Position numbers and translations under genes: made by a program. A stretch of 50,147 nucleotides of DNA from an uncultured Clostridia bacterium (lineage in GTDB: Bacteria; Bacillota; Clostridia; Christensenellales; Borkfalkiaceae), in contig CALVPY010000016.1 in NCBI GenBank assembly GCA_944354535.1, forward strand, positions 1 through 50,147. The letters run 5' to 3'. This document shows positions 13,084 to 42,300 of this stretch, one piece after another (the stretch's first letter is position 1; each line of letters starts with the position of its first letter). The notes under the pieces were generated by a model that was given only the letters and a program-made list of their open reading frames with translations, was not told the origin of the DNA and did no database searches.

Positions 13084-13147
13084 AAAATCACTGAGCCGAG
13101 CAGGGTTTCCCTGCGCTGGCTCCCCCAATTTGCCTTTTGCCAAAGGC
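13084..13147 (-). repeat. module B, copy 1 (two-hairpin repeat)
   Basis: Read on the minus strand: hairpin GCCTTT-GGCA-AAAGGC, linker AAATTGGGGG, then a stem with outer pairs GAGCC/GGCTC, internal loop AGC/TC and inner pairs GCAGGG/CCCTGC closing AAA, ending CAGTGATTTTT. Same layout as the copies at 13368, 20536, 37485 and 42237 but with different stem sequences. It lies in the leader region of gyrA. Confidence 0.75.
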
Positions 13148-13174
13148 TTATTGTTCTTAGAATGACATAGGGCT

Positions 13175-13276
13175 CCCGCAAAGATTTTGCGAAGCAAAAG
13201 ATTTGTGGGAAAAGGAGGAGCAGGCATCAAAGCCCTGCCCCGACCTAAGGAGGGGCTGGCAAAGTTTGCCTTGCTC
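13175..13276. repeat. further structured repeats in the gyrB-gyrA gap
   Basis: 13175-13209 is a hairpin (CCCGCAAAGATTTTGC / GCAAAAGATTTGTGGG) with a central tandem G-A mismatch. 13213-13276 can fold on the minus strand into a three-way shape: outer GGAGCA/TGCTCC, inner GGCAAA/TTTGCC and GCCCC/GGGGC. The 80-codon open frame across this stretch looks repeat-derived, not a gene. The rest of the gap to 13326 shows nothing further. Confidence 0.45.
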
Positions 13277-13326
13277 CGACGCGTTCGCGGGCGATAACGC
13301 CGCTTAAAATCAACCAACCACACCCC

Positions 13327-13361
13327 TCACGACTTTTTTGTGCCTGCACAAAAAAGTGTGA
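13327..13361 (-). repeat. module A hairpin, gyrB-gyrA gap, distal copy
   Basis: Arms pair over 15 positions (TCAC, then ACTTTTTTGTG) with one bulged base after the fourth pair, around a CCTG loop. On the minus strand the 3' flank reads GTGAGGGGTG, shared with the copies next to glyS (plus strand) and alaS. Confidence 0.65.
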
Positions 13362-13367
13362 ACACAT

Positions 13368-13414
13368 AAAATCACTCTGCAAGCAAGGTTGCCTTGCGCA
13401 GCAGGCCCCAATTT
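13368..13414 (-). repeat. module B, copy 2
   Basis: On the minus strand: linker TAAATTGGGG, then outer pairs CTGC/GCAG, internal loop TGC/TT and inner pairs GCAAGG/CCTTGC around CAA, ending AGTGATTTT. The hairpin before the linker is the clamp of the adjacent core (ATGCG/CGCAT). The segment 13368-13539 is nearly identical to 42237-42425. Confidence 0.75.
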
Positions 13415-13415
13415 A

Positions 13416-13497
13416 CGCATACCTGCGGCTCGCCGAGGTGAATGCGCGGGCGCTTCCATTGTTGCCATCTGCCCGCGCAGAGGGCGAGCAGCCCTCT
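13416..13497. repeat. module C core, copy 1
   Basis: Plus-strand reading: clamp CGCAT/ATGCG (13416-13420, 13442-13446) enclosing ACCT/AGGT and CGGC/GCCG; then stem GCGCGGGC/GCCCGCGC (13444-13451, 13471-13478) with ATTGTT inside its loop; then AGAGGGC/GCCCTCT (13479-13497). Same three-helix order as the cores at 37305 and 46000 although the stems differ. Confidence 0.7.
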
Positions 13498-13500
13498 GAT

Positions 13501-13539
13501 CGGAAGATTTGTTCTTGTCAGTTCAAGAAAAAATCTCCG
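13501..13539 (-). repeat. module A hairpin 5 nt after the gyrB stop codon
   Basis: Arms 13501-13517 and 13524-13539 pair with one bulged base and one G-A mismatch; the loop is TCAGTT on the plus strand (AACTGA in gene sense). No T run follows, so it is not a classical terminator. Confidence 0.75.
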
Positions 13540-13544
13540 AGTTT

Positions 13545-15695
<2,151 letters not shown>

Positions 15696-15726
15696 CTAAG
15701 CGGCATAAGCACCATACAAAGAACGT

Positions 15727-16647
15727 TCAGTCTCTCCCCTTCTCCGTCTTCGGCGGCGCGAGACAGCCTTCTTCGGAAAGCAGCCGCGGCGTCTCTTTCC
15801 CTGCGCACGCGTACCACTCCTTCATCCGGGAAAGATATTCCGCGAGCCCTTCCTTTTCCGCCCACTGCATCCTGTAACGGATATTCTGCAGTTCCCGCGC
15901 CGTCACGTCTATCCCGCACGGCACGAGATGAGCGATCTTCCCGCCCGCGCCAAACGCGCTTTCGAGCTCCACAACGAAAAACGCCATGTTCTTGGCGTAG
16001 TAGGGGTTCGTGCCGTTCGCAATATTGCGGGCGGCGAGCGCCGATATGTCCTTTGCGGACTGACGGGGCAGAACGGCGGTGACCGTCTCTTTCATCGCCA
16101 TCCTGCGGCGGACGGCAAGCAAGGAAAGCGGCTCTCCCTCTTCCCCGATAAAATAAGCGCCCGTCGTGGGGTCGAGCGCCAGCCACCCGCCCCGCCTGCG
16201 GTCGTAGATCTCCGTTACGACGTGATTGTCCGTATCATAGGGCGAAGCGGGGTACATCCACACCCGCCGCGCGGGAATGCCGACGGCAAGGCAGCACTCC
16301 GCCAAGATCTTCGCCTTGTTGAGGCAGTTGATGCCCACATCCTTCCGTTCGAAGCAGTAGTCGAGGAGCGCGAGCGCATTGCAGGGGACATGGTTATCGT
16401 ACATGCTCTCGTGTTTGAGGCGCGGCGCGAGATAGCGGCAAAGGCGCAGGGCGCGCACAAACGCCCCTCCCCTGCCCGCGGCGCGTTCTATGGGATAACG
16501 CGTTTTGAGCTCTTCAAACTCGGAGCAGTCAAAGCGGCAGACGGTCGCTTCGTCCTCCCCCTTCCGCCAGACCTGCAAGCCGAATAAGATGCCGCAGTAG
16601 ACGTCGTAAAATTGTTCCTGAACTTCCGAAAATTCCTTTCTGTTCAT
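15727..16647 (-). CDS. transglutaminase-like (papain-fold) domain protein
   Basis: 306 residues. The triad of the bacterial transglutaminase-like fold is visible: Cys in GINCLNKAKILAECCLAVG, His in TDNHVVTEIYD and Asp in GWLALDPTTGAYF. The segment around GIPARRVWMYP is also typical. No signal peptide, so likely cytoplasmic, where such proteins act as cysteine proteases or have lost activity. ATG with GGAGG 6 nt upstream. It follows the dus gene by 68 nt and ends with its own terminator. Physiological substrate unknown. Confidence 0.85.
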   Translation of the reverse strand: MNRKEFSEVQEQFYDVYCGILFGLQVWRKGEDEATVCRFDCSEFEELKTRYPIERAAGRGGAFVRALRLCRYLAPRLKHESMYDNHVPCNALALLDYCFERKDVGINCLNKAKILAECCLAVGIPARRVWMYPASPYDTDNHVVTEIYDRRRGGWLALDPTTGAYFIGEEGEPLSLLAVRRRMAMKETVTAVLPRQSAKDISALAARNIANGTNPYYAKNMAFFVVELESAFGAGGKIAHLVPCGIDVTARELQNIRYRMQWAEKEGLAEYLSRMKEWYACAGKETPRLLSEEGCLAPPKTEKGRD

Positions 16648-16715
16648 CTCCGCCTCCTGCCTTCATTCTATCACCCTGCGCCGCAAAATGCCATCAAGCA
16701 GTCGTTGAAAGGCGC

Positions 16716-17804
16716 TCAGCCAATGGTTGAAGGAGCGGGACCGAACAGTTCTTCGGCGATGAGACAGAGCGTTTCGACGCTGTCTGCGGCAAACAGGCGG
16801 CGCTTGTATCCGGCGGCGCCGCGCACGCCCTTGCACCAGAACGCCGCCATCTTGCGAAGAAAGAGAAGGGCGAACCGCTCGCCGTTCAAGCGTATCTCCT
16901 CGTCGAGGAGCGGAAAGAAGAGCTCCCTCATCGAAGGGGCGGGCGTTCCTAAAATATCCGAAAAGGTCTGCGGGCGGTAGAGCGCGGCGCGCGCCACCAT
17001 GACGCCGTCCGCGCCCGTTCTTTGCAGCATCTTTTCGGCGTCCTTTCTGTTCCACACGCCGCCGTTGGCAATGACGGGGATCTTGACCGCGTTCTTCGCT
17101 TCGGCAATGGCAGAATAGTCGGGCTCGCCCGCATAGATGCGCTCGCGCACCCGCCCGTGGACGGTAACAAGGCACGCCCCCGCGCCCTCGCACAATTTAG
17201 CGAACTCGGCGGCGACGTTATCCCCCTCCTTCACGCCGATGCGGAACTTGACGGAGATGCGCTTGCCGCTCTTTGCGCACGCCGAAATGACTTTCTCGGC
17301 CAAAGGCATCTTTTCAAGGAGCGCGCTCCCCTCGCCGTTTTTGACGATCTTGGGCATGGGGCAGCCCATGTTGAGGTCGATAAGGTCGTAGGGCGCAAGG
17401 AGCTCGCTCTCACAGGCGGCGCGCAAGATCTCGGGGTCGGAGCCGAACAGCTGCGCCGCTTTGGGGCTCTCCTCCCCGCAGCGCAGCAGCTTCTTGGTCT
17501 CGGCGTTGTCGTATAAAAGCCCCTTCGAGCTCACCATCTCGGTGAAGGTGAGCCCCGCCCCGAGCCCCGCGCACATCCTGCGGTAGGCAAGGTCGGTATA
17601 GCCCGCCATGGGGGCGAGCAGCACGTTATTGGGAAGGGTCAGCCCCGCGAAGGAGAGGGGGTTGAACAGCCCGCCGCAGTTCCCCGCCGCGCCCTCGGGG
17701 GAAGCATTCCCCGCGCAAAGAGCCGCGTCCTCTTGCGCGCTCTCGGGCAAAACACCGCCCGCGCCCTCGGGCGGGAGCGCGCCCGCGCCGTCAAAGGCTC
17801 TCAT
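16716..17804 (-). CDS. dus: tRNA-dihydrouridine synthase
   Basis: 362 residues. FMN-dependent reduction of uridine in tRNA. TIM barrel opens with NNVLLAPMAGYTD, the catalytic Cys is in LIDLNMGCPMPKIVKNGEGS, and HGR, PVIANGG and GADGVMVARAAL mark the phosphate and FMN site. An N-terminal extension of about 45 residues, rich in Gly/Ala/Pro/Glu, precedes the usual start region (LFNPLSFAGLTL). ATG 17804 is chosen for GGAGG 5-6 nt upstream; it overlaps the end of yabN by 14 nt. A later start would give a standard-length DusB-type protein but I see no site for it. Confidence 0.93.
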   Translation of the reverse strand: MRAFDGAGALPPEGAGGVLPESAQEDAALCAGNASPEGAAGNCGGLFNPLSFAGLTLPNNVLLAPMAGYTDLAYRRMCAGLGAGLTFTEMVSSKGLLYDNAETKKLLRCGEESPKAAQLFGSDPEILRAACESELLAPYDLIDLNMGCPMPKIVKNGEGSALLEKMPLAEKVISACAKSGKRISVKFRIGVKEGDNVAAEFAKLCEGAGACLVTVHGRVRERIYAGEPDYSAIAEAKNAVKIPVIANGGVWNRKDAEKMLQRTGADGVMVARAALYRPQTFSDILGTPAPSMRELFFPLLDEEIRLNGERFALLFLRKMAAFWCKGVRGAAGYKRRLFAADSVETLCLIAEELFGPAPSTIG

Positions 17805-19179
17805 GCGCCCTCCGCTCGTACTCCTTCCTCTCCTCGGGGGAGAGGACGTTGACGTCCTTCCCGTCGGCGAGCACGAGTGCTTCGAAGGCGGTGTACTCTC
17901 TCTGCACCGCTTTGACTTTGTCGAGGAGCGCCTGTTCCGCGTCGCCGCCCTTGAGTTTGCCGAGCCGCACGGCGGCAAGCAAAAGCTCGCCGAGCGCTTC
18001 GTCCGCATTTTCATCCTCGGCGGCAGACAAGCGCTTTTCGGCGGCAAAGAGCGCCTCTTCCGCCGCCTCGTAAGTATCCTTCCAGCCGCCCTTGCCCGTG
18101 CGCTTGACGACTTTCTCGGCGCGAAGGAGCGCAGGGAAACCCTCGGGCACGTCGTTGACGGAATCGGAGAAGGTCTTCTGATGCTTTTCCGTCATCTTGT
18201 TCTTCTCCCATACCGAGAGCGCCCCGTCCGCGCCCGCCGCCTTATCCTGCCCGAAGACGTGCGTATGGCGGGTGATGAGCTTTTCGGTGACTTCGGAGAT
18301 GACGTCCGTCATGTTGAAATTGCCCGCCTCTTCCTCCATGAGGGTATGGAAGACCGCCTGCATCAGCACGTCGCCCGCTTCCTCGCGCATGCGCTCGGGA
18401 TCCTTTCTGTCGATGGCGTCTACGAGCTCGTACGCCTCCTCGATGAGGTTGATGCGGATGGACTCGTGCGTCTGCACCCTGTCCCACGGGCAGCCGTCGG
18501 GCGCGCGCAGGCGGCGCATGACGGCGATGAAATCGTCGAGATCGAACCGCTTCTTTTCAAGCAGCGGGATATCGAAGAGGACGAGCGCCGTCTCGGGCGA
18601 ATAACTTTCGGCGCGGTCGGCTTCATAGAGCGGGATGCGCTCCGCCTTCTCCCCGTCGAGAAGAAGCGCGGGCGCCTCGTCGCCGAAGCGGTCGGAAAGC
18701 AGCAGCTTGACGTCCCCCGCAAGCAACTTGTCGTCGAGATCGTACACAACGAGAGGCAGCGCAAGCCTGCGCTCTGCAACTTCGTAGGCGGAGACCGCCG
18801 TATAGCCCCCGAAGAGCCCCGCCCGCGCCGCCGCGGACGCCGCCTTGGAGACGCCTTCGAGGACGGTGACGCCGCCCTGCTTTAAAAGGAGCTGCGCCGC
18901 GCGGTCCTCGGTGACGCCGCCGTCCACGCAGTACACAACATCCCCCTCCGCCGCGCGCTTTCTGACTTCCGCGGCGAGGTTCTTTGCAAGCGTATCGAAA
19001 TTGCGGCTCTTTTCGTAGACAAAGTCGAGGCTTTCAAACGCGACGTCAAGCTCTTTCAGCACCTGCGCCGACGCGAGCGATGCGGCGCGCACCAGCACGC
19101 AGCGCGCCTCCTTCAGGCAGTTGACCGCCCGCAGCGAGAGCTCCCCCGCGCGCGTTCCCAGACCGATGATCGTGATCAT
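17791..19179 (-). CDS. yabN: YabN-like fusion: tetrapyrrole-methylase-type domain plus MazG nucleotide pyrophosphohydrolase
   Basis: 462 residues. N-terminal SAM-dependent methylase fold (MITIIGLGTRAGELSLRAV, later VVYCVDGGVTED) covers about 1-190. The MazG part follows from about 230: GCPWDRVQTHESIRINLIEE, EEAYELVDAI and EEAGDVLMQ supply the metal-binding Glu/Asp helices; a second helical repeat completes it. MazG hydrolyses (d)NTPs to monophosphates. Start 19179 has GGAGGAGGG 6 nt upstream. In B. subtilis yabN follows yabM and spoVT, the same order as here. It begins inside the apparent 3' end of yabM (134-nt overlap), which is unusual. Confidence 0.9.
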   Translation of the reverse strand: MITIIGLGTRAGELSLRAVNCLKEARCVLVRAASLASAQVLKELDVAFESLDFVYEKSRNFDTLAKNLAAEVRKRAAEGDVVYCVDGGVTEDRAAQLLLKQGGVTVLEGVSKAASAAARAGLFGGYTAVSAYEVAERRLALPLVVYDLDDKLLAGDVKLLLSDRFGDEAPALLLDGEKAERIPLYEADRAESYSPETALVLFDIPLLEKKRFDLDDFIAVMRRLRAPDGCPWDRVQTHESIRINLIEEAYELVDAIDRKDPERMREEAGDVLMQAVFHTLMEEEAGNFNMTDVISEVTEKLITRHTHVFGQDKAAGADGALSVWEKNKMTEKHQKTFSDSVNDVPEGFPALLRAEKVVKRTGKGGWKDTYEAAEEALFAAEKRLSAAEDENADEALGELLLAAVRLGKLKGGDAEQALLDKVKAVQREYTAFEALVLADGKDVNVLSPEERKEYERRAHESL

Positions 19180-20479: not shown

Positions 20480-20490
20480 ATGTAATGGGT

Positions 20491-20528
20491 TCACGAATTT
20501 CTTTTGCTACGCAAAACAAATTCCGTGA
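20491..20528 (+). repeat. module A hairpin upstream of yabM
   Basis: Arms TCACGAATTTCTTTTG and CAAAACAAATTCCGTGA around CTACG, with one bulged C and one C-C mismatch. Differs from the glyS copy by a compensatory A-T for C-G pair. Confidence 0.75.
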
Positions 20529-20535
20529 GTTTTAA

Positions 20536-20592
20536 GCAAAAGTATTTGCAAATTGAGTGCGCGGGCGCAGGGGAACCCTGCTTGCGCCATTA
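20536..20592 (+). repeat. module B, copy 4
   Basis: Hairpin GCAAA-AGTA-TTTGC, linker AAATTGAGTG, then outer pairs GCGC/GCGC, internal loop GGGC/TT and inner pairs GCAGGG/CCCTGC around GAA. It shares the AGTA tetraloop with the copy at 37485. Points towards the AEC permease gene. Confidence 0.75.
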
Positions 20593-20624
20593 TTTGAGAA
20601 GCAAAAGGGAACGTCAACCTCCTT

Positions 20625-20668
20625 GGCTCCTCCCGTGGGGGAGCTGTCACCGAAGGTGACTGAGGGAG
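20625..20668. repeat. E element, copy 1
   Basis: Double hairpin: GCTCCTCCC/GGGGGAGC followed by GTCACC-GAA-GGTGAC and GAGGGAG. The second stem differs from the E copy at 25253 by an A-T to G-C pair change. Confidence 0.7.
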
Positions 20669-20774
20669 TCGCCTTATTATAAGAGGTTTGTTATGCAGCG
20701 CAGGCAGTTCTCTCCCCGCGTCGCAACGGAAGAAATAAAAACCCCAAAATTTCTCCCCCGCCCCGTAAAGATAG

Positions 20775-24625: not shown

Positions 24626-25639
24626 TTATTTCTTGTGCTTTAAGATCTCCACGATCATGCGCTCGGAGAGGAAGGGATACAGCCCGCGCGGGATGCGCTC
24701 CCCGCGTTCGAGCGCCCCCATGACGAGCGCTTCAAGCGCTTCCTCGGAAAGGAAGGGCGCGAGGGCTATAAGCTGTCCGCTCTTGACGCCGCTGCGCTCG
24801 GCAAGTTTTTTGAGCGTCTCCTGCGACAAGAACGGGGCGAGCGCCGCAAGTTCCCCGCCGTCCGCTTCGGCGAGCTCTGCCAATGCGTCGAGGTCCTCTT
24901 CCGAGAGGAAGGGCGCGAGCGGCACGAGCTCGGAGACGGTATAGCCCTCTCCACGCAGCTCTTCGACAAGTTCGCGCAGGCGCGCCGACGAGAGGAAGGG
25001 CGCGAGCATCACGAGCTCTTTGAGCCGTTTGCTCTTTGCCTTGTCCTTTCTTTTTTCGCCCGATTTTTCCGCGCCGAAGATGTAGACCGTTTTGCCGTCG
25101 CGGATGTGCGCCCGCGCGCCCCGCCCCGTGCGCTTCCAAAAGGCGTGAAAACGGCGCGGCTCTTCCTCGTCTTCCTCGTCTTCCTCGTCTTCGCCCTCTT
25201 CGTCTTCTTCATCGATATCCTCGTCGAAGTCTTCGTCGTCGCTCTCCCCCTCGGCTCCCTCTTGGAGGGAGCTGTCGCCGCAGGCGACTGAGGGAGTATC
25301 CCCGCGGCGGGCGCTTTCCACCGCCTCGTCCAACACTTCGGGCGTGAGGACGGGGGCGACTTCCGCGATCTCCCCCAGTGAGAGCCCCTGCCCTTCGCCC
25401 TTTGCGAGCTTTTCGACATTGCCCGCCGAGGCGCCGCCGCCCAAGAGTTCTTCGATGGAGCAGCCGAAGAGTTCCGCAAGCTCGGGGAGCTTGGAGATAT
25501 CGGGCATGGAATTGCCGCGCTCCCAATTGCTCACCGCCTGAAAGCTGATGCCGAGGGCGTCCGCGAGCTGCATCTGCGTCATGTTGTGCTCTTTTCGCTT
25601 TTGGGAGATGATCCTCCCCACTTTGACCGTATCAAACAT
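24626..25639 (-). CDS. XRE-family regulator with acidic linker and LAPFLS repeats
   Basis: 337 residues. N-terminal XRE helix-turn-helix (about 6-60: ISQKRKEHNMTQMQLADALG, ISFQAVSNWERGN). A Glu/Asp run spans 132-160. The C-terminal half holds LAPFLS at 212, 241, 267 and 293 and YPFLS at 321, 26-29 residues apart, each followed by a helical segment; VAPVLTPEVLDEAV at 94 looks like a first diverged unit. Residues about 114-130 are encoded by an E repeat. I do not recognise the C-terminal family. ATG 25639 has GAGGAGG upstream; the frame is open 86 codons further but runs over a second small gene. Translationally coupled to that gene. Confidence 0.85.
   Translation of the reverse strand: MFDTVKVGRIISQKRKEHNMTQMQLADALGISFQAVSNWERGNSMPDISKLPELAELFGCSIEELLGGGASAGNVEKLAKGEGQGLSLGEIAEVAPVLTPEVLDEAVESARRGDTPSVACGDSSLQEGAEGESDDEDFDEDIDEEDEEGEDEEDEEDEEEPRRFHAFWKRTGRGARAHIRDGKTVYIFGAEKSGEKRKDKAKSKRLKELVMLAPFLSSARLRELVEELRGEGYTVSELVPLAPFLSEEDLDALAELAEADGGELAALAPFLSQETLKKLAERSGVKSGQLIALAPFLSEEALEALVMGALERGERIPRGLYPFLSERMIVEILKHKK
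25253..25296. repeat. E element, copy 2, inside the XRE gene
   Basis: Stems GCTCCCTC/GAGGGAGC and GTCGCC-GCA-GGCGAC followed by TGAGGGAG, the same double hairpin as at 20625. It is read through in frame as about residues 114-130 (TPSVACGDSSLQEGAE) of the XRE protein, right after the first LAPFLS-like unit. Confidence 0.75.
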
Positions 25640-34865: not shown

Positions 34866-34921
34866 ATCCTGCTCCTGATGTCGTGCGGGCAGCAGCGCGC
34901 CGCACGGTGTTTTCTCGCTCT

Positions 34922-34927: not shown

Positions 34928-34983
34928 CCATAGAATGCCCGAAAAGCATACTCTTTCCGCCCGCTTTTGCAAAATTTCTAAAA

Positions 34984-35018
34984 ATTAGGTTGTATTTTAG
35001 CTAATCTTCGTGTATAAT
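34984..35018 (+). promoter_or_regulatory. promoter and probable autoregulatory operator of phd-doc
   Basis: TTGTAT (34990-34995), 17-bp spacer, TATAAT (35013-35018). Overlapping symmetry: ATTAG (34984-34988) with CTAAT (35001-35005), and palindrome TTAGCTAA (34997-35004) between the boxes. Phd-type antitoxins repress their own promoters, so this is the likely site. Confidence 0.7.
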
Positions 35019-35036
35019 AGGGGCGGAGGTAAAACC

Positions 35037-35279: not shown

Positions 35280-35653
35280 TCCGCTTCGGCAAAGAGAAAG
35301 TGCTGCTTCTGCACCGCATCCTGATCGAACAGACAGGCGGCGAAGACGGCGTGCGCGACATGGGGCTGTTGGAATCGGCGCTTGCCGCCTGCGACGCCAC
35401 CTTCGACGGCAAGGAACTCTTCCCCACCAAAGAGGAAAAGGCGGCGCGCCTTTGTACGGGGCTTGTATCCAATCATGCCTTTGTGGACGGCAATAAACGC
35501 ATCGGCGTCTATGTGATGCTCACTTTTTTGGAAGTCAACGGCATCCGCCTGAACGTGACCGACCAAGAACTCGTCGGGATCGGGCTTTCCCTTGCGAAAA
35601 GCGAGATGAAGTACGAAGAACTCCTTGCATGGATCAAAGCGCACGAAGCCTGA
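35276..35653 (+). CDS. doc: Doc-type Fic-fold toxin
   Basis: 125 residues, the size of P1 Doc. The Fic-like active motif is NHAFVDGNKRIG (His about 67, Lys 74, Arg 75); Lys instead of the second Gly is the Doc variant that phosphorylates EF-Tu rather than AMPylating. MGLLESALA is also characteristic. Overlaps the antitoxin by ATGA, ends 23 nt before a strong terminator. Classic type II toxin-antitoxin pair between two aminoacyl-tRNA synthetase genes. Confidence 0.92.
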   Translation: MIRFGKEKVLLLHRILIEQTGGEDGVRDMGLLESALAACDATFDGKELFPTKEEKAARLCTGLVSNHAFVDGNKRIGVYVMLTFLEVNGIRLNVTDQELVGIGLSLAKSEMKYEELLAWIKAHEA

Positions 35654-35675
35654 GCTTTCCTTTTCTTGTTTCCCG

Positions 35676-35708
35676 CCGCCGCGAACGTTTCGCGGCGGTT
35701 TTCCTTTT
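35676..35708 (+). terminator. terminator of phd-doc
   Basis: Perfect 10-pair stem CCGCCGCGAA/TTCGCGGCGG with loop CGT, followed by TTTTCCTTTT. Confidence 0.85.
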
Positions 35709-35799
35709 GCTCCCGCCTTCTCCCTGCGTGATTTCCCGCCGTCCTGCCCGCCGCGCGCCCGAATTTTCCCCGCTTCCCCATTTCACGGGCGCGAAACGA

Positions 35800-35829
35800 T
35801 TGACAAATCAAGCCCGAAAATACTATACT
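35800..35829 (+). promoter_or_regulatory. sigma-A promoter of glyS
   Basis: TTGACA (35800-35805), 18-bp spacer, TATACT (35824-35829). The remaining leader is about 50 nt, too short for a T-box. Confidence 0.8.
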
Positions 35830-35884
35830 ATCCTTTGGAAAATTCAGAAAACAACGCGGCAAGCGCCGCATTTTGGAGCACGAT

Positions 35885-37261
35885 ATGGCAAAGAAAACAG
35901 TCACGATGGACAAGCTCGTCGCCCTCTGCAAGAACAGGGGCATCATCTTCCCCGGCAGCGAGATCTACGGCGGCATGGGCAATACCTGGGACTACGGCCC
36001 CGTGGGCGTAGAGATCAAGAACAACATCAAGCGCGCCTGGTGGAAGCGCTTCGTGCAGGAGAGCGACAACTCCTTCGGCGTGGACGCCGCCATCCTCATG
36101 AACAGCCGCGTATGGGAAGCGAGCGGGCACACCACCTCTTTCTCCGACCCCAAGATGGACTGCAAGGAATGCAAGAGCCGTCACCGCGCCGATAACCTCA
36201 TCGAGGCGCACTCCAAGGGCAAAGTCAACCCCGACCTCATGACCAACGAGGAGATGGAGCAGTACATTCAGGAGCACCACGTCTGCTGCCCCGTCTGCGG
36301 CAAGTTCAACTGGACGAACATCCGCACCTTCAACCTCATGTTCGAGACCTCCCGCGGCGTCACCGACGAGAGCCAGAACAAAATTTATCTCCGCCCCGAA
36401 ACGGCGCAGGGCGAATTCGTCAACTTCCTCAACGTGCAGCGCACCACGCGCGCCAAAGTGCCCTTCGGCATCGCGCAGGTGGGCAAGGCGTTCCGCAATG
36501 AAATAACGCCCGGCAACTTCATCTTCCGCACCATCGAGTTCGAGCAGATGGAGCACCAGTGGTTCTGCAAGGAGGGCACGGACGCCGAATACTACGCCGA
36601 ATTCAAAGAGAAGGCATGGCAGTTCCTTCTGGACCTCGGCTTTAACGCAGAACACCTCCGCTTCAAGGATCACGACAAGCTCGCCCACTACGCAAGGGCG
36701 GCGTGCGACATCCAGTACGACTTCCCGATGGGCTGGTCGGAGCTCAACGGCATCCACAACCGCACCGACTACGACCTTTCCCGCCACCAGGAATATTCGG
36801 GCAAGAGCCTCACTTACGTCGACCCCGTCTCGGGCGAGAAGTACATCCCCTACGTCATCGAGTACTCCATCGGCGCAGACCGCCTGATGCTCGCAGTGCT
36901 TTCCGAAGCGTATGACGAAGAGACGCTCGAAGGCGGCGACGTGCGCGTCGTGATGCACTTCCACCCCGCCATCGCGGCGTATAAGGCGGCCGTCCTGCCC
37001 CTTCAGAAGAACCTCGCGCCCAAGGCGAAGGAAATTTTGGCGCAGCTCAAAAAGCACTTCCCCGTCGCCTACGACGAGGCGGGCTCCATCGGTAAGCGCT
37101 ACCGCCGCCAGGACGAGATCGGCACCCCCTACTGCATTACGATCGACTTCGACACGCTGGAAAACGACACCGTCACCGTCCGCGACCGCGACTCCATGGA
37201 GCAGGTGCGCCTGAATATCAACGAACTCGTCGATTTCCTGAGAGAGAAGTGTGCATTTTAA
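35885..37261 (+). CDS. glyS: glycyl-tRNA synthetase, dimeric (alpha2) type
   Basis: 458 residues, the eukaryotic/archaeal-like single-chain form found in many Firmicutes. Class II core: [18 protein letters not shown], motif 2 region [26 protein letters not shown], motif 3 near the end of the core. A zinc-like insertion is marked by [11 protein letters not shown] and [11 protein letters not shown]-terminal anticodon-binding domain begins near residue 360 ([13 protein letters not shown]). ATG 35885 has GGAG 7 nt upstream. A module A hairpin starts 2 nt after the stop. Confidence 0.97.
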
Positions 37262-37263
37262 GT

Positions 37264-37301
37264 TCACGCATTTCTTTTGCTTCGCAAAACAAATGCCGTG
37301 A
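37264..37301 (+). repeat. module A hairpin directly after the glyS stop codon
   Basis: Arms TCACGCATTTCTTTTG and CAAAACAAATGCCGTGA around CTTCG, with one bulged C and one C-C mismatch, followed by GGGGTG. Not followed by a T run. Confidence 0.75.
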
Positions 37302-37304
37302 GGG

Positions 37305-37420
37305 GTGAGCAAATGCTTTCTTGGCAACGCCACGGTGTGGCGTTGACCATTTGCGAACCTGGAAATGGCGCATTGTTCGCGCCATTTCCTGACCGAGCGC
37401 GGTCTCTACCGCGCGAGAAG
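37305..37420 (+). repeat. module C core, copy 3
   Basis: Helix 1: clamp GCAAATG/CATTTGC (37309-37315, 37348-37354) around perfect CAACGCCAC-GGT-GTGGCGTTG. Helix 2: GGAAATGGCGC/GCGCCATTTCC (37361-37371, 37379-37389) with loop ATTGTTC. Helix 3: GCGCGG/CCGCGC (37397-37414) around TCTCTA. Compared with the copy at 46000, helix 2 has three compensatory pair changes and helix 3 has one. Confidence 0.8.
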
Positions 37421-37484
37421 GAGTTACCGCGATTTTAACTTGCTCTATCTCCCACGCACCCGTCTGTCTTTCTAAAAACAATAA

Positions 37485-37543
37485 GCGCCAAGTATGGCGC
37501 AAATTGAGTGAGCCAGCGCAGGGAAACCCTGCTCGGCTCATTT
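37485..37543 (+). repeat. module B, copy 5
   Basis: Hairpin GCGCCA-AGTA-TGGCGC, linker AAATTGAGTG, then GAGCC/GGCTC outer pairs, AGC/TC internal loop, GCAGGG/CCCTGC inner pairs around AAA. 37421-37484 between core and this module shows nothing recognisable. At 37588-37604 a truncated A copy follows (identical to the first 17 bp of the one at glyS). Confidence 0.75.
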
Positions 37544-37626
37544 CATTTTAGAAACGATAAAGAGCAGTTTTTTTCTCAGCAACGACCATCGTTCACGCAT
37601 TTCTTTTACAAACAACCTCAAATATC

Positions 37627-37654
37627 AAGAGCCGAGGCGACTCGGCTCTTTTTT
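37627..37654 (+). terminator. terminator closing the glyS 3' region
   Basis: AAGAGCCGAG/CTCGGCTCTT stem with GCGA loop and TTTT. It is 365 nt after the glyS stop, so the repeats would be transcribed as a long 3' UTR or as a separate RNA. The same stem sequence is used at 39244. Confidence 0.8.
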
Positions 37655-37722
37655 GCTGCGCTCGGCGCGCAGGACAACGCAGGCGGAAAATGCACCCGTT
37701 TGTCATACTTTTTCGTGCAATT

Positions 37723-37740
37723 GTCATAATAATATATGAT
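37723..37740. promoter_or_regulatory. GTCATA-N6-TATGAT palindrome upstream of the glycosyltransferase promoter
   Basis: GTCATA (37723-37728), 6 bp, TATGAT (37735-37740), ending 17 bp before the -35 box. A further GTCATA half-site is at 37702-37707. Near-identical site at 40202-40219. Confidence 0.55.
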
Positions 37741-37757
37741 AATTTGCCCTCGTTTTG

Positions 37758-37786
37758 TTGACAAGGGCAGAAAAACCGCCTATACT
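37758..37786 (+). promoter_or_regulatory. sigma-A promoter of the glycosyltransferase gene
   Basis: TTGACA (37758-37763), 17-bp spacer, TATACT (37781-37786). Confidence 0.85.
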
Positions 37787-37849
37787 GTAAGGGAAGGCGG
37801 CCGCCACCCTTTTGCTCTCCACTCACCCCGCGGCCCGAACGGAGGACTC

Positions 37850-39238
37850 ATGCAGCCCATCGAACTCATCCTGATCTTATACGGCGCGGCGGCGCTTCTT
37901 GCCGCGCTTATGTATATCCCCAAACTCGTGCAGTTTTTGCACTGTTTTTGCCCGCCCGCAAAGCGGTATGCCCGCGAAAAGCGGCGCATCGCGCTCCTCA
38001 TCCCCGCCCGCGACGAGAGCCGCGTCATCGGCGATCTGTTCGACTCCATCCTGCGGCAGACGTATGACCGCGAAAACTTCGACGTCAACGTCATCGTGAA
38101 GCGCGCGGACGACCCTACCGTGGAGATGGCGAAAAAGCTCGGGTTCTCCGTCTTTGTCGTGCCCGAACAGACGTGCAAGGGCGCCGCGCTCGACGGGTTC
38201 TTCCAAAGCATCGGGAAAGAGCATTGGCAGGACTGCGCCGCCTACTGCATCGTGGATGCGGACGCCGTGCTCGCCCCCGACTATGTGGAACAGCTCAACA
38301 ACGCGCTCGATATGGACGCGCACATCTACCTCTCGCGCAAGCGCATCAAAAACTACCTGGGCGATAAAAAGAGCCGCAGCGTCTTCTGCAACTGCTCGGC
38401 GCTCAACTATCCGCTGCTCGACGACATGGGGAATTACTACCGCATGAAGAAGGGCGTTCCCCTCAATATGTGCGGGCAGGGCATGATGGTGCGTGCGGAC
38501 GCCATCCAAAAGATCGGCGGCTGGCCGTACCGCTCCCTCACCGAGGACTACGAGATGAAGATGGACAGCTTCCTGCAAGACTTCAAGTCCGTCTGCTACC
38601 CCTACGCCGTCATCTATACGGAAGAGGCCGTGGGGCACGGCGAAGCATGGCAGCGGCGGCTGCGCTGGGTGATGGGCTTCACGCAGTGCGACCACAAGTA
38701 TAAAAAGAGCGTGCAAAGGGCGATGCGCGAAAAGAAATACCCCTTCTTCGCGTGGTACGATACCTTCTTCGGCATCGTGCCGCCCGTCATCTTCATTGTG
38801 GCGACCATGCTCGCCTCGCTTGCGGGCCTTGTGCTCACCATCGTCTATGCCTCGATGGGGAGCATGCTTTGGGTGAAGGCGCTCCTGCTCCTTATGCTGA
38901 TGCCGCCCCTCCTTATGTATCTTTTCGACCTTTTGTACAACGCCCTGACGATGTACGTCTATCGCGACGCCTATGTCGTGCTCTCTAAGGGCGAAAAGGC
39001 GGCGACCCTGCTCTTTTCCCCCCTCTTCATGTTCGAGTACTTCCCCGTCTTCCTGCACGCGCACCTCTACCTTTTGACGGGAAAGAAGCTCGGGTGGGCG
39101 CACACGGCGCGGCTCACCTATAAGAAGGGCGCCGCCGCCGAAAAGGCGGAGCTGTTTTACCGCTCTGCGATCAAAAAGTTCTTTATCAGGCGCAAAAAAG
39201 AGACGCACGCCGAAGAGGACAACACCGTAAAAGAGTAA
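37850..39238 (+). CDS. membrane-bound family 2 glycosyltransferase
   Basis: 462 residues. One N-terminal membrane helix (about 3-25), a cytoplasmic GT-A domain with LLIPARDESRVIGDL, DxD-type metal site IVDADAVLAP, acceptor-side TEDYEMKM and the processive-type QRRLRW motif, then about four C-terminal helices (from about 305). This is the BcsA/IcaA-like layout of enzymes that build and extrude a polysaccharide or modify lipid carriers. ATG 37850 has GGAGG 4 nt upstream. Own promoter, shared palindrome upstream, and own terminator. Product not predictable. Confidence 0.92.
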   Translation: MQPIELILILYGAAALLAALMYIPKLVQFLHCFCPPAKRYAREKRRIALLIPARDESRVIGDLFDSILRQTYDRENFDVNVIVKRADDPTVEMAKKLGFSVFVVPEQTCKGAALDGFFQSIGKEHWQDCAAYCIVDADAVLAPDYVEQLNNALDMDAHIYLSRKRIKNYLGDKKSRSVFCNCSALNYPLLDDMGNYYRMKKGVPLNMCGQGMMVRADAIQKIGGWPYRSLTEDYEMKMDSFLQDFKSVCYPYAVIYTEEAVGHGEAWQRRLRWVMGFTQCDHKYKKSVQRAMREKKYPFFAWYDTFFGIVPPVIFIVATMLASLAGLVLTIVYASMGSMLWVKALLLLMLMPPLLMYLFDLLYNALTMYVYRDAYVVLSKGEKAATLLFSPLFMFEYFPVFLHAHLYLLTGKKLGWAHTARLTYKKGAAAEKAELFYRSAIKKFFIRRKKETHAEEDNTVKE

Positions 39239-39243
39239 AAGAT

Positions 39244-39272
39244 AAGAGCCGAGTTCTCTCGGCTCTTTTTTT
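39244..39272 (+). terminator. terminator of the glycosyltransferase gene
   Basis: AAGAGCCGAG/CTCGGCTCTT with TTCT loop and seven T. Confidence 0.9.
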
Positions 39273-39300
39273 GCACGTTTTTGACTGCGGAGGAGCGCTT

Positions 39301-40116
39301 TCAGGCGCCCTCCCGCCGTTTTCTTCTGTCGGGCAGATATTCGAGCCCGACCCCGTACGCCTCTTCATAGCACGTTTTCCACGCTTCTTCCGCGCCCGCT
39401 TTCAGCGCCCTCATCTTCTCCTTGCGGGGGAGCGCTTCATCGGCATAGACGGCGGGAAGGATGTGGATGACGAGCCGCCGCATATGCCCGAACTTATCCT
39501 TTTTGAAGGTGAAAAAGACGGGCAGCACGGGAACGTTGCTCCTGACGGCGTAATAGAAGGCGCCCTCTTTCATGGGGCGGGGCTTCTGATAGTTGACCCA
39601 CATCGCCTGCTCCGCATAAAAGTTGACGATCTTGCCCGCTTTTAAGAGGCGGTCGACCTCGCGGTTGAAATTGCGCATGGCGGTAAGGTTATTGCTCAAG
39701 GGCAGCATCCCGCCGCGGCGGATAAAGGCGCCCCCGAGCCCCTTCTTGTTGTTTTCCGCGCCCATCGTGTGGAAGGAGCGGAAATACCCCACCGCCTGCC
39801 GCACGAAGAGGGTATCGAGAAAGGCGATGTGGTTGGAGACGCACACCGCGCCGCTCTTTCCGATGGCTTTGAGATTTTCCCTGCCCACCACCTTGCAGCC
39901 GTAGGCGACTTTGAGGACGAGGGGCGCAAGCGCCGCCATCCCGACGCGCAGCAAAAAGGTGCCGATGCGGCGGTCTTTGCCCGTGTAGTCGAAATGCTCG
40001 CCGGGATCTTCCCAATTGTTCCCGAAGGGGATATAGTTATAGTCGAAGCGGCGATAGCTTTCGAGCGTCCGCTGGATACCCTCCCGCTTTTCCGATTTGC
40101 TGCGTTTTTCCTTCAT
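39301..40116 (-). CDS. PlsC-like 1-acyl-sn-glycerol-3-phosphate acyltransferase
   Basis: 271 residues. Acyltransferase motif NHIAFLD (the NHX4D catalytic pair, His about 96), then a second block GGMLPLSNN and a third FYAEQAMW, with one hydrophobic segment before the motif. Member of the LPLAT family that adds the second acyl chain of phosphatidate, or a related lipid. Two earlier in-frame starts exist, but the promoter -10 box (TATAATG) overlaps the ATG at 40158, so translation must begin later: ATG 40116 with GGGG 5 nt upstream. Confidence 0.88.
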   Translation of the reverse strand: MKEKRSKSEKREGIQRTLESYRRFDYNYIPFGNNWEDPGEHFDYTGKDRRIGTFLLRVGMAALAPLVLKVAYGCKVVGRENLKAIGKSGAVCVSNHIAFLDTLFVRQAVGYFRSFHTMGAENNKKGLGGAFIRRGGMLPLSNNLTAMRNFNREVDRLLKAGKIVNFYAEQAMWVNYQKPRPMKEGAFYYAVRSNVPVLPVFFTFKKDKFGHMRRLVIHILPAVYADEALPRKEKMRALKAGAEEAWKTCYEEAYGVGLEYLPDRRKRREGA

Positions 40117-40156
40117 AGCTTCCCCGAAAGAACGGGCCGCGCCCGCGTTTTCTTCC

Positions 40157-40185
40157 ATTATAGCCGCAAGACGGAGCAAAGTCAA
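40157..40185 (-). promoter_or_regulatory. sigma-A promoter of the acyltransferase gene
   Basis: TTGACT (40180-40185), 17-bp spacer, TATAAT (40157-40162) on the minus strand. Confidence 0.85.
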
Positions 40186-40201
40186 TCAAACGGGCGAATT
40201 T

Positions 40202-40219
40202 GTCATAAAAATATATGAC
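40202..40219. promoter_or_regulatory. GTCATA-N6-TATGAC palindrome between acyltransferase and PHP genes
   Basis: GTCATA (40202-40207), AAAATA, TATGAC (40214-40219), 16 bp upstream of the acyltransferase -35. Another GTCATA at 40227-40232. Matches 37723-37740 including flanking TTG and the AT spacer. Confidence 0.55.
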
Positions 40220-40255
40220 TTTTGCTGTCATATCGGAGCCGGGCGGCGGGCGCGC

Positions 40256-40284
40256 TTGCCTTTTTTGCCCGAATGTGGTATCAT
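40256..40284 (+). promoter_or_regulatory. promoter of the PHP gene, giving a predicted leaderless mRNA
   Basis: TTGCCT (40256-40261), 17-bp spacer, TATCAT (40279-40284). The start codon is at 40292, about where transcription should begin. Confidence 0.65.
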
Positions 40285-40291
40285 ATGAAAT

Positions 40292-41116
40292 ATGCTGACC
40301 GATATCCACACCCATTCCGCCTTTTCCCCCGACGGCATCTCTCCCCTCGAAGAGATGGTCGAGCGGGCGCATGAAAAGGGCCTCAAATACTTCGGCGTTT
40401 CCGAACACTTCGACTTTGACTATGCCGCCTGCGGGCTCGAGCTCAACGGCGAACATCCCCCGCTCATCGGCGGAGAGGAGTACTTTGCCGCCGCCCGCGC
40501 CCTGCAAGAGGAATACGCGGGCAAGGGGATGCGCCTTCTCGTGGGCGGGGAGTACGGCTTCTGCCCCGACAAGGGCTGCTGCGAGCGCTATCTCGCCCTC
40601 ACGGAGCGCAAAAAGCCCGATTTTATCGTCAACAGCGTACACGTCGTCAACGGCGGCGACTGCTATTTTGCCGGCTACTTTGCGGGAAAGGCGCGGGAAG
40701 ACGTCTATCGGGCGTATCTGGAACACATCCGAATGAGCCTCGACGCGCCCTACCCCTACGACATCGTGGCGCACATCGGCTATGTGAGCCGCAACGCCCC
40801 CTATGAAAACAAACTGCTGCGCTACGACGACTTCCCCGCCCTCTTTGACGACATCCTGAAAACCATCGTCGGGAAGGGGAAAATTCTCGAGGTCAACTCC
40901 TCGACGCGCGGCGCGGGAACGCCCTTCTTTCCCGAACGGAGCATCCTAGCCCGCTACTTCGAGCTGGGCGGAAGGCGTGTCTCCTTCGGTTCGGACGCGC
41001 ACGACACAAGCCGCATCGCCGAAGGACGGGAGAGGGCGGTTTCCGCTCTCAAAGAGCTGGGCTTTTCCGCCCTCACCATCCCCGACTGCGGGGAATACAA
41101 GGAAATTTTATTATAA
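40292..41116 (+). CDS. histidinol-phosphatase-like PHP-domain phosphoesterase
   Basis: 274 residues. PHP metal motifs in order: DIHTHSAFSPDG (residues 4-15), GVSEHFD, GGEYGF, NSVHVVNGG, DIVAHIGY, and C-terminal FGSDAHD. This matches the HisJ/HisK type of histidinol-phosphatase, though many such proteins in Firmicutes act on other phosphate esters; no his genes are nearby. The start is fixed by DIHTHS and there is no Shine-Dalgarno; the promoter places the first nucleotide at or next to the ATG. Confidence 0.9.
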   Translation: MLTDIHTHSAFSPDGISPLEEMVERAHEKGLKYFGVSEHFDFDYAACGLELNGEHPPLIGGEEYFAAARALQEEYAGKGMRLLVGGEYGFCPDKGCCERYLALTERKKPDFIVNSVHVVNGGDCYFAGYFAGKAREDVYRAYLEHIRMSLDAPYPYDIVAHIGYVSRNAPYENKLLRYDDFPALFDDILKTIVGKGKILEVNSSTRGAGTPFFPERSILARYFELGGRRVSFGSDAHDTSRIAEGRERAVSALKELGFSALTIPDCGEYKEILL

Positions 41117-41121
41117 AGAGC

Positions 41122-41160
41122 GCGCCGCGCCCGCCCCCTGCAAGGGGGCGGGCGCGGCGC
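41122..41160. terminator. hairpin between the convergent PHP and ksgA genes
   Basis: Perfect 17-pair GC-rich stem with TGCAA loop. On the minus strand it is followed by GCTCTTTAT. It can serve both genes. Confidence 0.7.
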
Positions 41161-41175
41161 TATAAACCATTTCTG

Positions 41176-42015
41176 CTATTTTACAAGCCCTTTTTCAAAG
41201 AGCAGGTCGGAAAGCTTCCCGAGCTCTGTGGGCGAGAGCGTTTCCCCCCGCGCGCCTTCGGAAACGGCGGCTTCCGCCAAAATGCCCTTCGCCGCCTCGC
41301 GTGAAAGGCGGAACACGGCGATGAGGTTGTTTTCGAGCGTCTTCCTGCGGCTCAGAAAGGCGGCGCGCACCGTCTCGCGGAATGCCTTTTCGCTTTGTAC
41401 CGCAAAGCCTCCCGCCGTAAAGTCGGCGTGCACGACGGCGGAATCGACATTGGGGCGGGGCGTAAAGAGGGTGCGCGGCACTTTGCGCGTGATGCGGCAC
41501 TCCCCTCTTCGGGCGATGGCGGCTGTCACCGCGCCGTAGTCCTCCGTCCCCTCCGCGGCGCAGAAGCGGCGGGCGACTTCTTCCTGCACCATCACGGTGA
41601 AGGAGAGGCAGTTTTCCCCCTCCTCGACAAAGCGCATGACGATGGGCGTCGTCACATAGTAAGGGAGGTTTGCAACGACGCGGTACTTCCCGAGCTCCCT
41701 TTCGAGCGCGGGAAGGGAGCACTTTGCAAAGTCCTGAAAGCGCACTTCGGTGTTTTCGCAGCCCGAGAGCGTCTCCGAAAGGACGGGCTGTAAGCTCCTG
41801 TCGATCTCGAAGGAGACAACGCGCTTTGCTTGTTCGGAAAGGGCGCGCGTGAGCGCCCCCGCGCCCGTGCCGATCTCGAGGACGGTGGTGTTTTCGTCGA
41901 CGCCCGCATCCGAGACGATGGCGCGGAGCAGATTTGTATCGGTGAGGAAGTTCTGCCCGAACTGTTTTTTGAAGGAGAAGCCGTGCTTTTGGAGCACGGA
42001 GCGGAGATCATCCAT
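41176..42015 (-). CDS. rsmA: 16S rRNA (adenine1518/1519-N6)-dimethyltransferase
   Basis: 279 residues, also known as KsgA. FGQNFLTD N-terminal motif, SAM site VLEIGTGAGALTRAL, acidic EIDRSL, catalytic NLPYYVTTP, and the C-terminal helical domain. Dimethylates two adjacent adenines near the 3' end of 16S rRNA. ATG 42015 with GAGGA 5-6 nt upstream. Downstream of metG-tatD-radical SAM as in the B. subtilis metS-yabD-ksgA region, but separated from them by about 410 nt of repeats and a terminator. Confidence 0.96.
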   Translation of the reverse strand: MDDLRSVLQKHGFSFKKQFGQNFLTDTNLLRAIVSDAGVDENTTVLEIGTGAGALTRALSEQAKRVVSFEIDRSLQPVLSETLSGCENTEVRFQDFAKCSLPALERELGKYRVVANLPYYVTTPIVMRFVEEGENCLSFTVMVQEEVARRFCAAEGTEDYGAVTAAIARRGECRITRKVPRTLFTPRPNVDSAVVHADFTAGGFAVQSEKAFRETVRAAFLSRRKTLENNLIAVFRLSREAAKGILAEAAVSEGARGETLSPTELGKLSDLLFEKGLVK

Positions 42016-42089
42016 AATTTTCCTCGCATGACGGGCGAAGTTCTGCCCATGCTGTTGTTGCAGGGAAGACCTGCCTTACCAAAGAACAA

Positions 42090-42131
42090 GAGGGGCGGAA
42101 GGATCGCGCAAATACGGTCTTTCCGCCCCTC
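42090..42131 (-). terminator. terminator of the metG-tatD-radical SAM operon
   Basis: 11-pair stem GAGGGGCGGAA/TTCCGCCCCTC (42090-42100 with 42121-42131) with a 20-nt loop, followed on the minus strand by TTGTTCTTT. It is about 300 nt after the radical SAM stop, beyond the repeats. Confidence 0.65.
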
Positions 42132-42153
42132 CGACGTTATTTTTCGTCGACCG

Positions 42154-42236
42154 TTTCTTGTCAGTTCAAGAAATGATCTCCGAGTTATTTGTTATTTATC
42201 ATGTTCCGCACATACAGCGGGTTGATATTTGCTTCC
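42154..42236 (-). pseudogene. duplicated 3' end of the radical SAM gene with its own partial A hairpin
   Basis: From the stop TAA at 42187-42185 the minus strand reads INPLYVRNMINNK, clearly related to the real C-terminus GIPLYVRKMIHNG encoded at 42428-42466. The 35 bp covering stop codon and hairpin (42154-42188) are identical to those next to the real stop (42396-42430). A remnant, not a gene. Confidence 0.7.
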
Positions 42237-42300
42237 AAAATCACTCTGCAAGCAAGGTTGCCTTGCGCAGCAGGCCCCAATTAGTACCCGCAGGGCATAC
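42237..42300 (-). repeat. module B, copy 3
   Basis: Nearly identical to copy 2 (13368): outer CTGC/GCAG, loop TGC/TT, inner GCAAGG/CCTTGC. It differs at the linker side, where an extra hairpin GTA-TG-CCC-TGC-GGG-TAC precedes TAATTGGGG. Confidence 0.75.

Follow-up and report, generated by a model that had tools for sequence, protein, structure and literature searches.

The hairpin repeat and its copies

What kind of element places the same pair of hairpins, joined by a constant linker, at five points along one stretch of bacterial DNA? The stretch analysed here, the window, comprises 50,147 nucleotides from an uncultured Clostridia bacterium of the family Borkfalkiaceae (contig CALVPY010000016.1, assembly GCA_944354535.1). 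An earlier note, made from the letters alone, had placed a two-hairpin motif with compensatory stems at 13084-13147, 13368-13446 and 42237-42306 on the minus strand, and at 20536-20592 and 37485-37543 on the plus strand. All five copies are located at these places and on these strands. At E up to 1, a covariance model, R1, picks out these five and no others from the window, with E values of 1.9e-19 to 1.9e-13; this recovery is not independent because the R1 source alignment includes the window's own copies. The two hairpins, HP1 and HP2, are real, but they form only the 3' part of a larger unit. The copy at 42237-42306 is present, but where HP1 meets the linker it has an extra hairpin of 17 nt that its ortholog lacks. 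That at 20536 is likewise present, but its outer HP2 stem (GCGC/GCGC) pairs one base out of register relative to the others. The units and associated features are as follows.

13376..13541, minus strand: unit c2, type II, in the gyrB-gyrA gap (R1 match, sequence reading); P1 13500-13541, P2 13480-13496, P3 13443-13479, HP1 13416-13427, linker AAATTGGGG 13406-13414, HP2 13376-13405
13093..13362, minus strand: unit c1, type I, directly downstream of c2 (R1 match, sequence reading); P1 13326-13362, middle part 13283-13325, about 116 nt of other sequence 13167-13282, HP0 13147-13166, HP1 13132-13147, linker 13123-13131, HP2 13093-13122
20490..20597, plus strand: unit c4, short form P1-TTTTAA-HP1-linker-HP2 (R1 match, sequence reading); P1 20490-20529, HP1 20536-20549, linker 20550-20558, HP2 20559-20588
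37263..37555, plus strand: unit c5, type I (R1 match, sequence reading, ortholog comparison); P1 37263-37302, a nested repeat of about 117 nt, middle part 37424-37459, HP0 37466-37485, HP1 37485-37500, linker 37501-37509, HP2 37510-37539, tail to 37555
37303..37423, plus strand: nested repeat inside c5, limits approximate (family D4, 88% alike)
37627..37650, plus strand: intrinsic-terminator-like hairpin downstream of c5 (consensus scan)
42245..42427, minus strand: unit c3, type II (R1 match, ortholog comparison); P1 42386-42427, P2 42366-42382, P3 42329-42365, HP1a 42302-42313, linker TAATTGGGG 42275-42283, HP2 42245-42274
42285..42301, minus strand: 17-nt hairpin at the HP1/linker junction of c3 (missing in ortholog L129)

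The P1 hairpin of c2 begins 3 nt past the gyrB stop codon (13545-13547), and that of c5 begins 1 nt past the stop (37259-37261) of a class-II aminoacyl-tRNA synthetase-like (aaRS) gene. Unit c3 lies directly 3' of the stop of a radical-SAM gene (42428-42430). Unit c4 sits between divergent genes and is therefore not behind a stop codon. The repeat nested in c5 is missing from the orthologous copy L085 and has a second copy at 45997-46116.

Architecture and distribution

The units share one plan: a 5' P1 hairpin, a middle part, HP1, the linker AAATTGRGK, HP2 and a T-rich tail. The middle part is of three types with up to two additional hairpins, and unit length is about 110-240 bp, nested insertions not counted. 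The linker and the asymmetric internal loop of HP2 are kept across divergent copies. By eye, the constant parts of alignments A3, A4 and A5 are AAATTGRGK and, in many rows, TAAG. A3 uses 83 rows (from 105 dereplicated of 159 copies) and the type II alignment A4 uses 34 (from 35 dereplicated of 40); A6 holds 150 of 152 matches, from 96 chosen loci. A5, with two mis-set rows, served for reading only and supplied no counts.

The covariance-model search that the earlier note had proposed finds at least 40 copies in the source genome, a lower bound with 42 candidates scored, and shows a patchy presence among relatives, with 34 carriers in 121 genomes of the bacterial family and up to 40 copies per genome. 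A relaxed pattern matches 27 copies in the source genome, as against none for a reversed-pattern control. Another genome, G055, holds 33 copies, and at least 112 stretches carry the repeat among the matches listed in a contig scan, itself a sample. Clusters of copies are arranged head-to-tail. A class-wide search gave no match in genomes outside the family, a weak negative with 13 candidates scored per genome. Insertions in the RNase P RNA of G055, G066, G042 and G070 were considered as possible copies; by eye they look like a longer variable arm and not like the repeat.

Position relative to genes

Not one copy lies inside a called gene (0 of 28 own copies, 0 of 144 others). In co-directional gaps the sense to antisense ratio is 74:22, the copies not being independent; gene-wise GC3 skew, which bears on a replication-strand account of this bias, is similar across gap classes. 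P1 begins 0-8 nt past the stop in 63 of the 71 sense units that have a stop codon nearby (the P1 pattern was drawn up after reading these same units), compared with 41 of 477 control stops. The gyrB-gyrA gap contains a unit in 7 of 14 genomes read. At the aaRS locus all 10 readable relatives lack the unit, and the flanks of these empty counterparts are too diverged for unit ends or a target-site duplication to be read. Here the unit of the window lies between the stop and the terminator-like hairpin, which suggests that it is transcribed; in the relative L219 such a hairpin follows the stop by about 16 nt. HP2 itself was rejected as an intrinsic terminator: no T-run directly follows it in the copies read, and at the aaRS locus the terminator-like hairpin lies further downstream. 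An over-strict terminator scan of 93 sense units places a terminator before the core in 5 and after it in 10. Some copies are common to orthologous sites, so turnover may be slow.

These positions raise the possibility of a cis-acting 3'UTR RNA element, acting in RNA processing, protection or translation termination, in which the RNA fold would be selected and copying would be secondary. Sense bias, the placement of P1 behind stops, the aaRS copy and recurrence in the gyrB-gyrA gap all favour it, and the first two count to that extent against a mobile repeat. The patchy presence and the 22 antisense copies in co-directional gaps speak against it.

Pairing, covariation and folding

Covariation is a further argument for an RNA. 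The earlier note had claimed that pairing is kept while bases change, and the compensatory score bears this out (0.383 versus 0.129 in shuffles), as do P3, HP1 and HP2 of type II units (0.483 versus 0.127). On the main measures compensatory pairing far exceeds both shuffled and slid controls, which supports a conserved structure over random repeats; the absence of covariation above background, which the note had named as the outcome that would tell against it, is not what is seen. The outer HP2 stem has a standard pair in 67.6% (A4) to 82.2% (A6) of cells, incomplete pairing that is partly due to the register shift. One complete unit, L085, is more stable when folded as RNA than any of its 200 shuffles (z -5.7). 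The fold as DNA is similarly exceptional (z -5.2; unit c2 z -4.5), which weakens the case for RNA. A closing stem around HP1-HP2 was suggested by the folds; in a permutation test of the stem just outside them, its own pairing is reached in 128 of 2000 permutations for type I, 92 of 2000 for type II and 1691 of 2000 for type III, so that it is borderline in the first two types and unsupported in the third.

The use of G-U wobble bears on the same choice. Counted over variable pairs with at least 75% pairing, wobble accounts for 2.5% of paired cells in the type II alignment (A4), and in the 150-copy set (A6) for 5.4% with the HP1 loop-closing pair or 2.6% without it. The figure for RNase P RNA from the same family of bacteria (alignment A8, 29 of 30 fetched loci, from 73 genomes with a match) is 15.4%, three- to sixfold more, RNase P being an imperfect yardstick that is vertically inherited and single-copy, with helices predicted from its own alignment. 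Without the 75% filter the values are 2.6% (A4), 5.2% (A6) and 15.2% (RNase P). One-sided changes account for 8.5% of standard-pair changes in type II units and 20.5% in RNase P. Wobble this far below the RNase P level speaks for DNA hairpins, or for the replacement of whole stems, rather than for a selected RNA fold. Of the earlier note's "RNA (or hairpin DNA)", it is thus the bracketed half that gains. Mispairs in A4 show a modest excess of GU (13) over AC (5), which hints at some strand-specific pairing. Overall, the 3'UTR RNA is a possible but unlikely explanation.

Apparent exchange of hairpins between copies

The 28 own copies contain 23 combinations of HP1 with HP2. Between two orthologous copies HP1 is wholly unlike, and the 17-nt hairpin is present or absent in two independent comparisons (c3 versus L129, and two tandem units in L029). 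Its pattern occurs at five places in the genome, four already known plus L231, all at the HP1 position of a unit; none of the five is free-standing. Two HP2 chimeras, L011 and L064, were read by eye. Between copies that are orthologous, tandem or similar, hairpins thus vary as modules, and look as if they had been exchanged. It is common for the stems of otherwise similar copies to differ at several pairs together. Such multi-pair differences, along with the reassortment of hairpins, mean that some of the compensatory signal may have arisen otherwise than by stepwise RNA selection. Block exchange is not the whole story, since one-sided differences are common among close copies: they make up 183 of the 508 cells that differ in HP1 and, in the outer HP2 stem, 27 of 37, the other 10 being two-sided.

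Exchange could also proceed with no selected hairpin function at all, template switching and recombination keeping the arms complementary and stop adjacency reflecting tolerance of insertions. Template switching predicts several stem pairs changed at once and few wobble intermediates (PMC8794818). Both are seen in the repeat, as are hairpin presence/absence and chimeras. However, the asymmetric HP2 loop and the linker persist, though symmetric switching should heal a mismatched loop; stop adjacency is far above control; and among close copies the outer HP2 stem shows more one-sided than two-sided differences. Overall, an account without hairpin function is improbable.

Comparison with known elements and enzymes

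BOX elements of Streptococcus pneumoniae are stem-loop boxes combined modularly in gene gaps; the repeat has another host, and the likeness is one of description. It also resembles REP/BIME sequences in being intergenic, multicopy and mosaic, and in having imperfect hairpins that contain an internal loop. REPs are single hairpins of 20-50 nt that follow a tetranucleotide, GTAG in most cases, and are accompanied by a Y1 transposase (PMC8266576). The repeat, in contrast, consists of multi-hairpin units of about 110-240 nt, head-to-tail, without Y1 association. Y1_Tnp was found neither in the source genome with its 40 copies (92.8% complete, so that absence is not final) nor in G055, and among 121 genomes it is not associated with the repeat (14 of 34 carriers, 31 of 87 others). 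By eye, alignments A3, A4 and A5 have no constant GTAG or CGTC at the hairpin feet. A classical REP/BIME moved by a Y1 (RAYT, IS200/IS605-type) transposase is therefore disfavoured and very unlikely. Still less credible is a retro-element or intron remnant copied via RNA by a reverse transcriptase. The sense orientation of copies in 3'UTRs that are likely transcribed would fit, but RVT_1 is missing from the source genome and G055 and shows no association (7 of 34 carriers, 12 of 87 others), and Rfam gives it no support. The window has no Rfam match at gathering score, and a search of three loci at E up to 5 gave five weak, chance-level matches, none of which reached gathering score (best E 0.63).

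CIR repeats of Caulobacter and Brucella are intergenic with two linker-joined arms (PMC2229807), and the repeat has the two-arm feature; CIRs contain a GANTC motif in a terminal loop and belong to another clade. In the repeat, unlike CIR, stems reassort between copies and extra hairpins are added. ERIC, RUP and NEMIS are small non-autonomous MITEs with terminal inverted repeats, whereas the closing stem around HP1-HP2 is not clearly supported; ERIC is co-transcribed with its neighbours in an orientation-dependent manner (PMC2229807). One 92-base copy had no match among phages and plasmids, and one exact pattern none in IMG/VR. With these queries the repeat matches no described element, an identity that the earlier note had raised against its own reading. 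No account of the repeat came up in searches of one open-access library.

A proposed mobile DNA repeat behind stop codons

We give about an even chance to the repeat being a new family of non-coding, non-autonomous, REP/CIR-like mobile DNA repeats. The proposed mechanism is as follows. (i) A putative recombinase or transposase would read the hairpins as folded single-stranded DNA, so that the hairpins are kept; single-stranded DNA is proposed because so little wobble is tolerated. (ii) Whole stems would pass from copy to copy through recombination or template switching. (iii) With P1 abutting the stop in a likely transcribed 3'UTR, the upstream mRNA would gain a stable terminal hairpin from the unit. 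(iv) This hairpin may delay termination or protect the 3' end. The last steps have a parallel in E. coli REPs, of which 446 of 4,072 lie within 15 nt of stop codons (PMC12306157), and those at this distance are reported to stall ribosomes. A more far-reaching version, which we consider rather unlikely, makes the single hairpin the exchange unit of a new class of mobile element. A putative enzyme reading single-stranded DNA folds would insert, swap and stack such cassettes and target the composites just behind stops, each insertion giving the upstream gene its 3'UTR structure.

Significance

The repeat shows strong textbook covariation, yet it is wobble-poor relative to RNase P of the same family and its covariation is partly block-wise. 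Covariation by itself would have classed it as an RNA. It offers a natural test of what share of "RNA covariation" in repeats is produced by hairpin exchange at the DNA level, and of which enzymes mobilise hairpin repeats in genomes that lack RAYTs. The position behind stop codons makes an effect on upstream genes, such as gyrB, directly testable.

Copies and architecture of the repeat

The five copies of a two-hairpin motif described in the earlier note are all present, and their limits have been fixed to the base: c1 and c2 in the gyrB–gyrA gap, c3 at 42 kb beside a radical-SAM gene, c4 at 20.5 kb and c5 at 37 kb. Each consists of a first hairpin (HP1), the linker AAATTGRGK (TAATTGGGG in one copy) and a second hairpin (HP2) with an asymmetric internal loop. 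A covariance model of this core, R1, whose training rows include these five copies, finds them and nothing further in the window. The genome to which the window belongs is a 1.93-Mb assembly of 53 contigs with 92.8% completeness. In it a relaxed pattern yields 27 copies versus 0 for its reversed control, and R1 yields at least 40.

The flanks of the copies reveal that HP1–linker–HP2 is the 3' part of a larger composite. At its 5' end stands the imperfect hairpin P1 (TTCRC...GYGAG and relatives), and the middle that comes next is of one of three types:
Type I: GGGTGA...GATTTTAA...TATCGCCC...TGTCC-TTATT-GGACA
Type II: hairpins P2 and P3, then TTCACC
Type III: GAGGAAA...CCTC...GGACA
The 3' end is a T-rich tail, e.g. 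TTTTAG. Script sorting by loose rules divides 161 units into 70 of type I or other, 52 of type III and 39 of type II; short forms without a middle also occur. Clustered units run head-to-tail at a spacing of 112–283 bp. HP2 carries a longer tip (GCAAAAGCGTGGTTTTGC) instead of the usual one in several genomes (loci L018:1139, L011:1312, L231:1450 and others).

Within the same bacterial family, the Borkfalkiaceae of GTDB, R1 matches 34 of 121 genomes, in 6 of 18 genera and with 1 to at least 40 copies each. Among the matches listed, every named record with the core is a Clostridia MAG; Candidatus Gallimonas and Coproplasma are examples. A class-wide draw gave matches in 3 of 391 genomes, all three in this family, the negatives being weak ones. 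An exact-pattern search of IMG/VR and a search of phages and plasmids with a single copy gave no match, nor did Rfam at the gathering score for the window.

Genomic position

No copy lies inside a called gene (0 of 28 in the own genome, 0 of 144 elsewhere), as judged by a purpose-built codon-usage caller that called zero genes in the window's first 7.5 kb. That stretch (1–7577) holds long minus-strand ORFs, and its coding style may differ from that of the rest of the window. In co-directional gene gaps, 74 units are sense and 22 antisense; five units, c4 included, lie between divergent genes. A same-strand stop falls within 205 nt of the core in 72 units, 71 of them with a P1 match. P1 starts 0–8 nt past the stop codon in 63 of these 71 sense units; at stops where no unit was detected, the same pattern occurs at that distance in 41 of 477 cases, a control possibly inflated by undetected unit variants. 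Three of the window's five units begin 0, 1 and 3 nt past a stop. At L138, near position 1700, the upstream gene's stop seems by eye to be a TAA within P1, unlike in its relatives in L098 and L125.

Covariation and the nature of the pairing

The compensatory pairing proposed earlier holds up. The set of 83 dereplicated copies has a covariation score of 0.383 versus 0.129, with 0 of 500 shuffles as high and slid controls reaching at most 0.142. In this set neither further pair types (287 of 500 shuffles equally high) nor pairs with two-sided change (230 of 500) exceed the shuffles. The 34 type II copies score 0.483 versus 0.127; hairpin P3 has two-sided changes in 9 of 9 pairs, and the count of further pair types is reached by 19 of 500 shuffles. 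A set of 150 copies, fitted to the structure and thus biased towards it, scores 0.472 versus 0.144; further pair types (393 of 500) and two-sided pairs (500 of 500) are not above shuffles. The weakest helix, in part because one subfamily pairs in a different register, is the outer HP2 stem: its share of paired cells is 81.0% in the 83-copy set, 67.6% in the 34-copy set and 82.2% in the 150-copy set. As whole units, c2 and L085 each fold better than 200 of 200 shuffles.

The structure had been read as a selected RNA or hairpin DNA. The structure stands, and rare wobble favours the DNA side over a stepwise-evolving RNA. RNase P RNA from 29 genomes of the family served as yardstick: its variable pairs comprise 1495 Watson–Crick, 273 G-U (GU) and 15 A-C (AC), or 15.4% GU. 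Type II units have 503, 13 and 5 (2.5% GU). The 150-copy set has 1343, 77 and 44 (5.4%), or 1250, 34 and 44 (2.6%) when the loop-closing pair of HP1 is left out; over all its pairs there are 52 AC cells, 34 of them from a single mis-registered pair. GU pairs are therefore three to six times less frequent here than in RNase P, which fits strict DNA pairing or whole-stem replacement better than stepwise RNA evolution. Multi-base compensatory change can, by one account (PMC8794818), arise from template switching. An RNA effect is possible in view of a weak GU-over-AC excess, the sense bias and the 3' UTR position.

Exchange of hairpins between copies

Stems were compared between copies whose remaining sequence is at least 88% alike. 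HP2 stems are the same in most comparisons; where they are not, the difference tends to span several pairs: for 0, 1, 2, 3 and 4 differing pairs the counts are 44, 2, 3, 7 and 2 (outer stem) and 43, 3, 2, 4 and 3 (inner stem). For HP1, the counts for 0 to 5 pairs are 32, 33, 20, 75, 25 and 22, three being commonest. Differing cells are two-sided and one-sided in 325 and 183 cases for HP1, 31 and 0 for inner HP2, and 10 and 27 for outer HP2. The one-sided outer cells, which speak against a pure block model, stem partly from chimeras (e.g. L011) and the register shift. L011 and L064 combine HP2 halves of two different kinds, so that the outer stem is broken, as expected for fresh recombinants. 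The own genome has 23 HP1–HP2 combinations among 28 copies.

Orthologous sites and turnover

For the gyrB–gyrA gap, 14 of 41 genomes were read. Directly past the gyrB stop, seven of the 14, own included, have a recognisable unit: L203, L204, L209 and L214 by core pattern, L207 and L213 by R1 and, since its contig stops short of the linker, L205 by eye. Six have gaps of 6–164 nt without a unit, and L215 is ambiguous. Behind an aminoacyl-tRNA synthetase-like gene, the window's unit sits between the stop and a terminator-like hairpin. It is absent in 10 of 10 readable relatives (14 loci, three not parsed); the insertion is shared with Candidatus Gallimonas gallistercoris (L085), where HP1 is another hairpin and a nested repeat of about 117 nt is missing. 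The 42-kb copy has a 17-nt hairpin absent from its L129 ortholog, and the identical 17 nt are the difference between two tandem units in L029.

A second small repeat of about 117–120 nt, with several hairpins by eye, occupies 37303–37423 (nested in c5, and the one missing from L085) and 45997–46116 (88% alike). A further interspersed repeat (GGGAGCTGTC...GACTGAGGGAG) lies at 20618–20669 and 25246–25297 (79% alike); by eye, a similar stretch is found within the P1 loop of L054 and beside several units. Adjoining c3 on its downstream side, 42185–42217 (minus strand) resembles the radical-SAM gene's C-terminal codons and stop, and a further P1 start follows. The same is seen in L129, and the remnant looks like the leftover of a tandem paralogue.

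Mechanism and significance

Our preferred reading, at about even odds, is a non-autonomous DNA repeat: a putative enzyme acting on folded single-stranded DNA would use its hairpins, and recombination between copies would shuffle them. RAYT, the Y1 transposase of REP repeats, is an unlikely mobiliser, as is a reverse transcriptase. According to one account (PMC12306157), REPs no more than 15 nt from a stop codon stall ribosomes in Escherichia coli; 63 of the 71 sense units with a near stop lie within that distance. By analogy, the units might stall ribosomes at the stop of the upstream gene. The repeat is real and structured. No description of it was found in the literature and databases searched, and it is of a known general kind, the small intergenic hairpin repeats, among which it is distinguished by its position next to stop codons, its modularity at the level of single hairpins and a covariation poor in wobble pairs.
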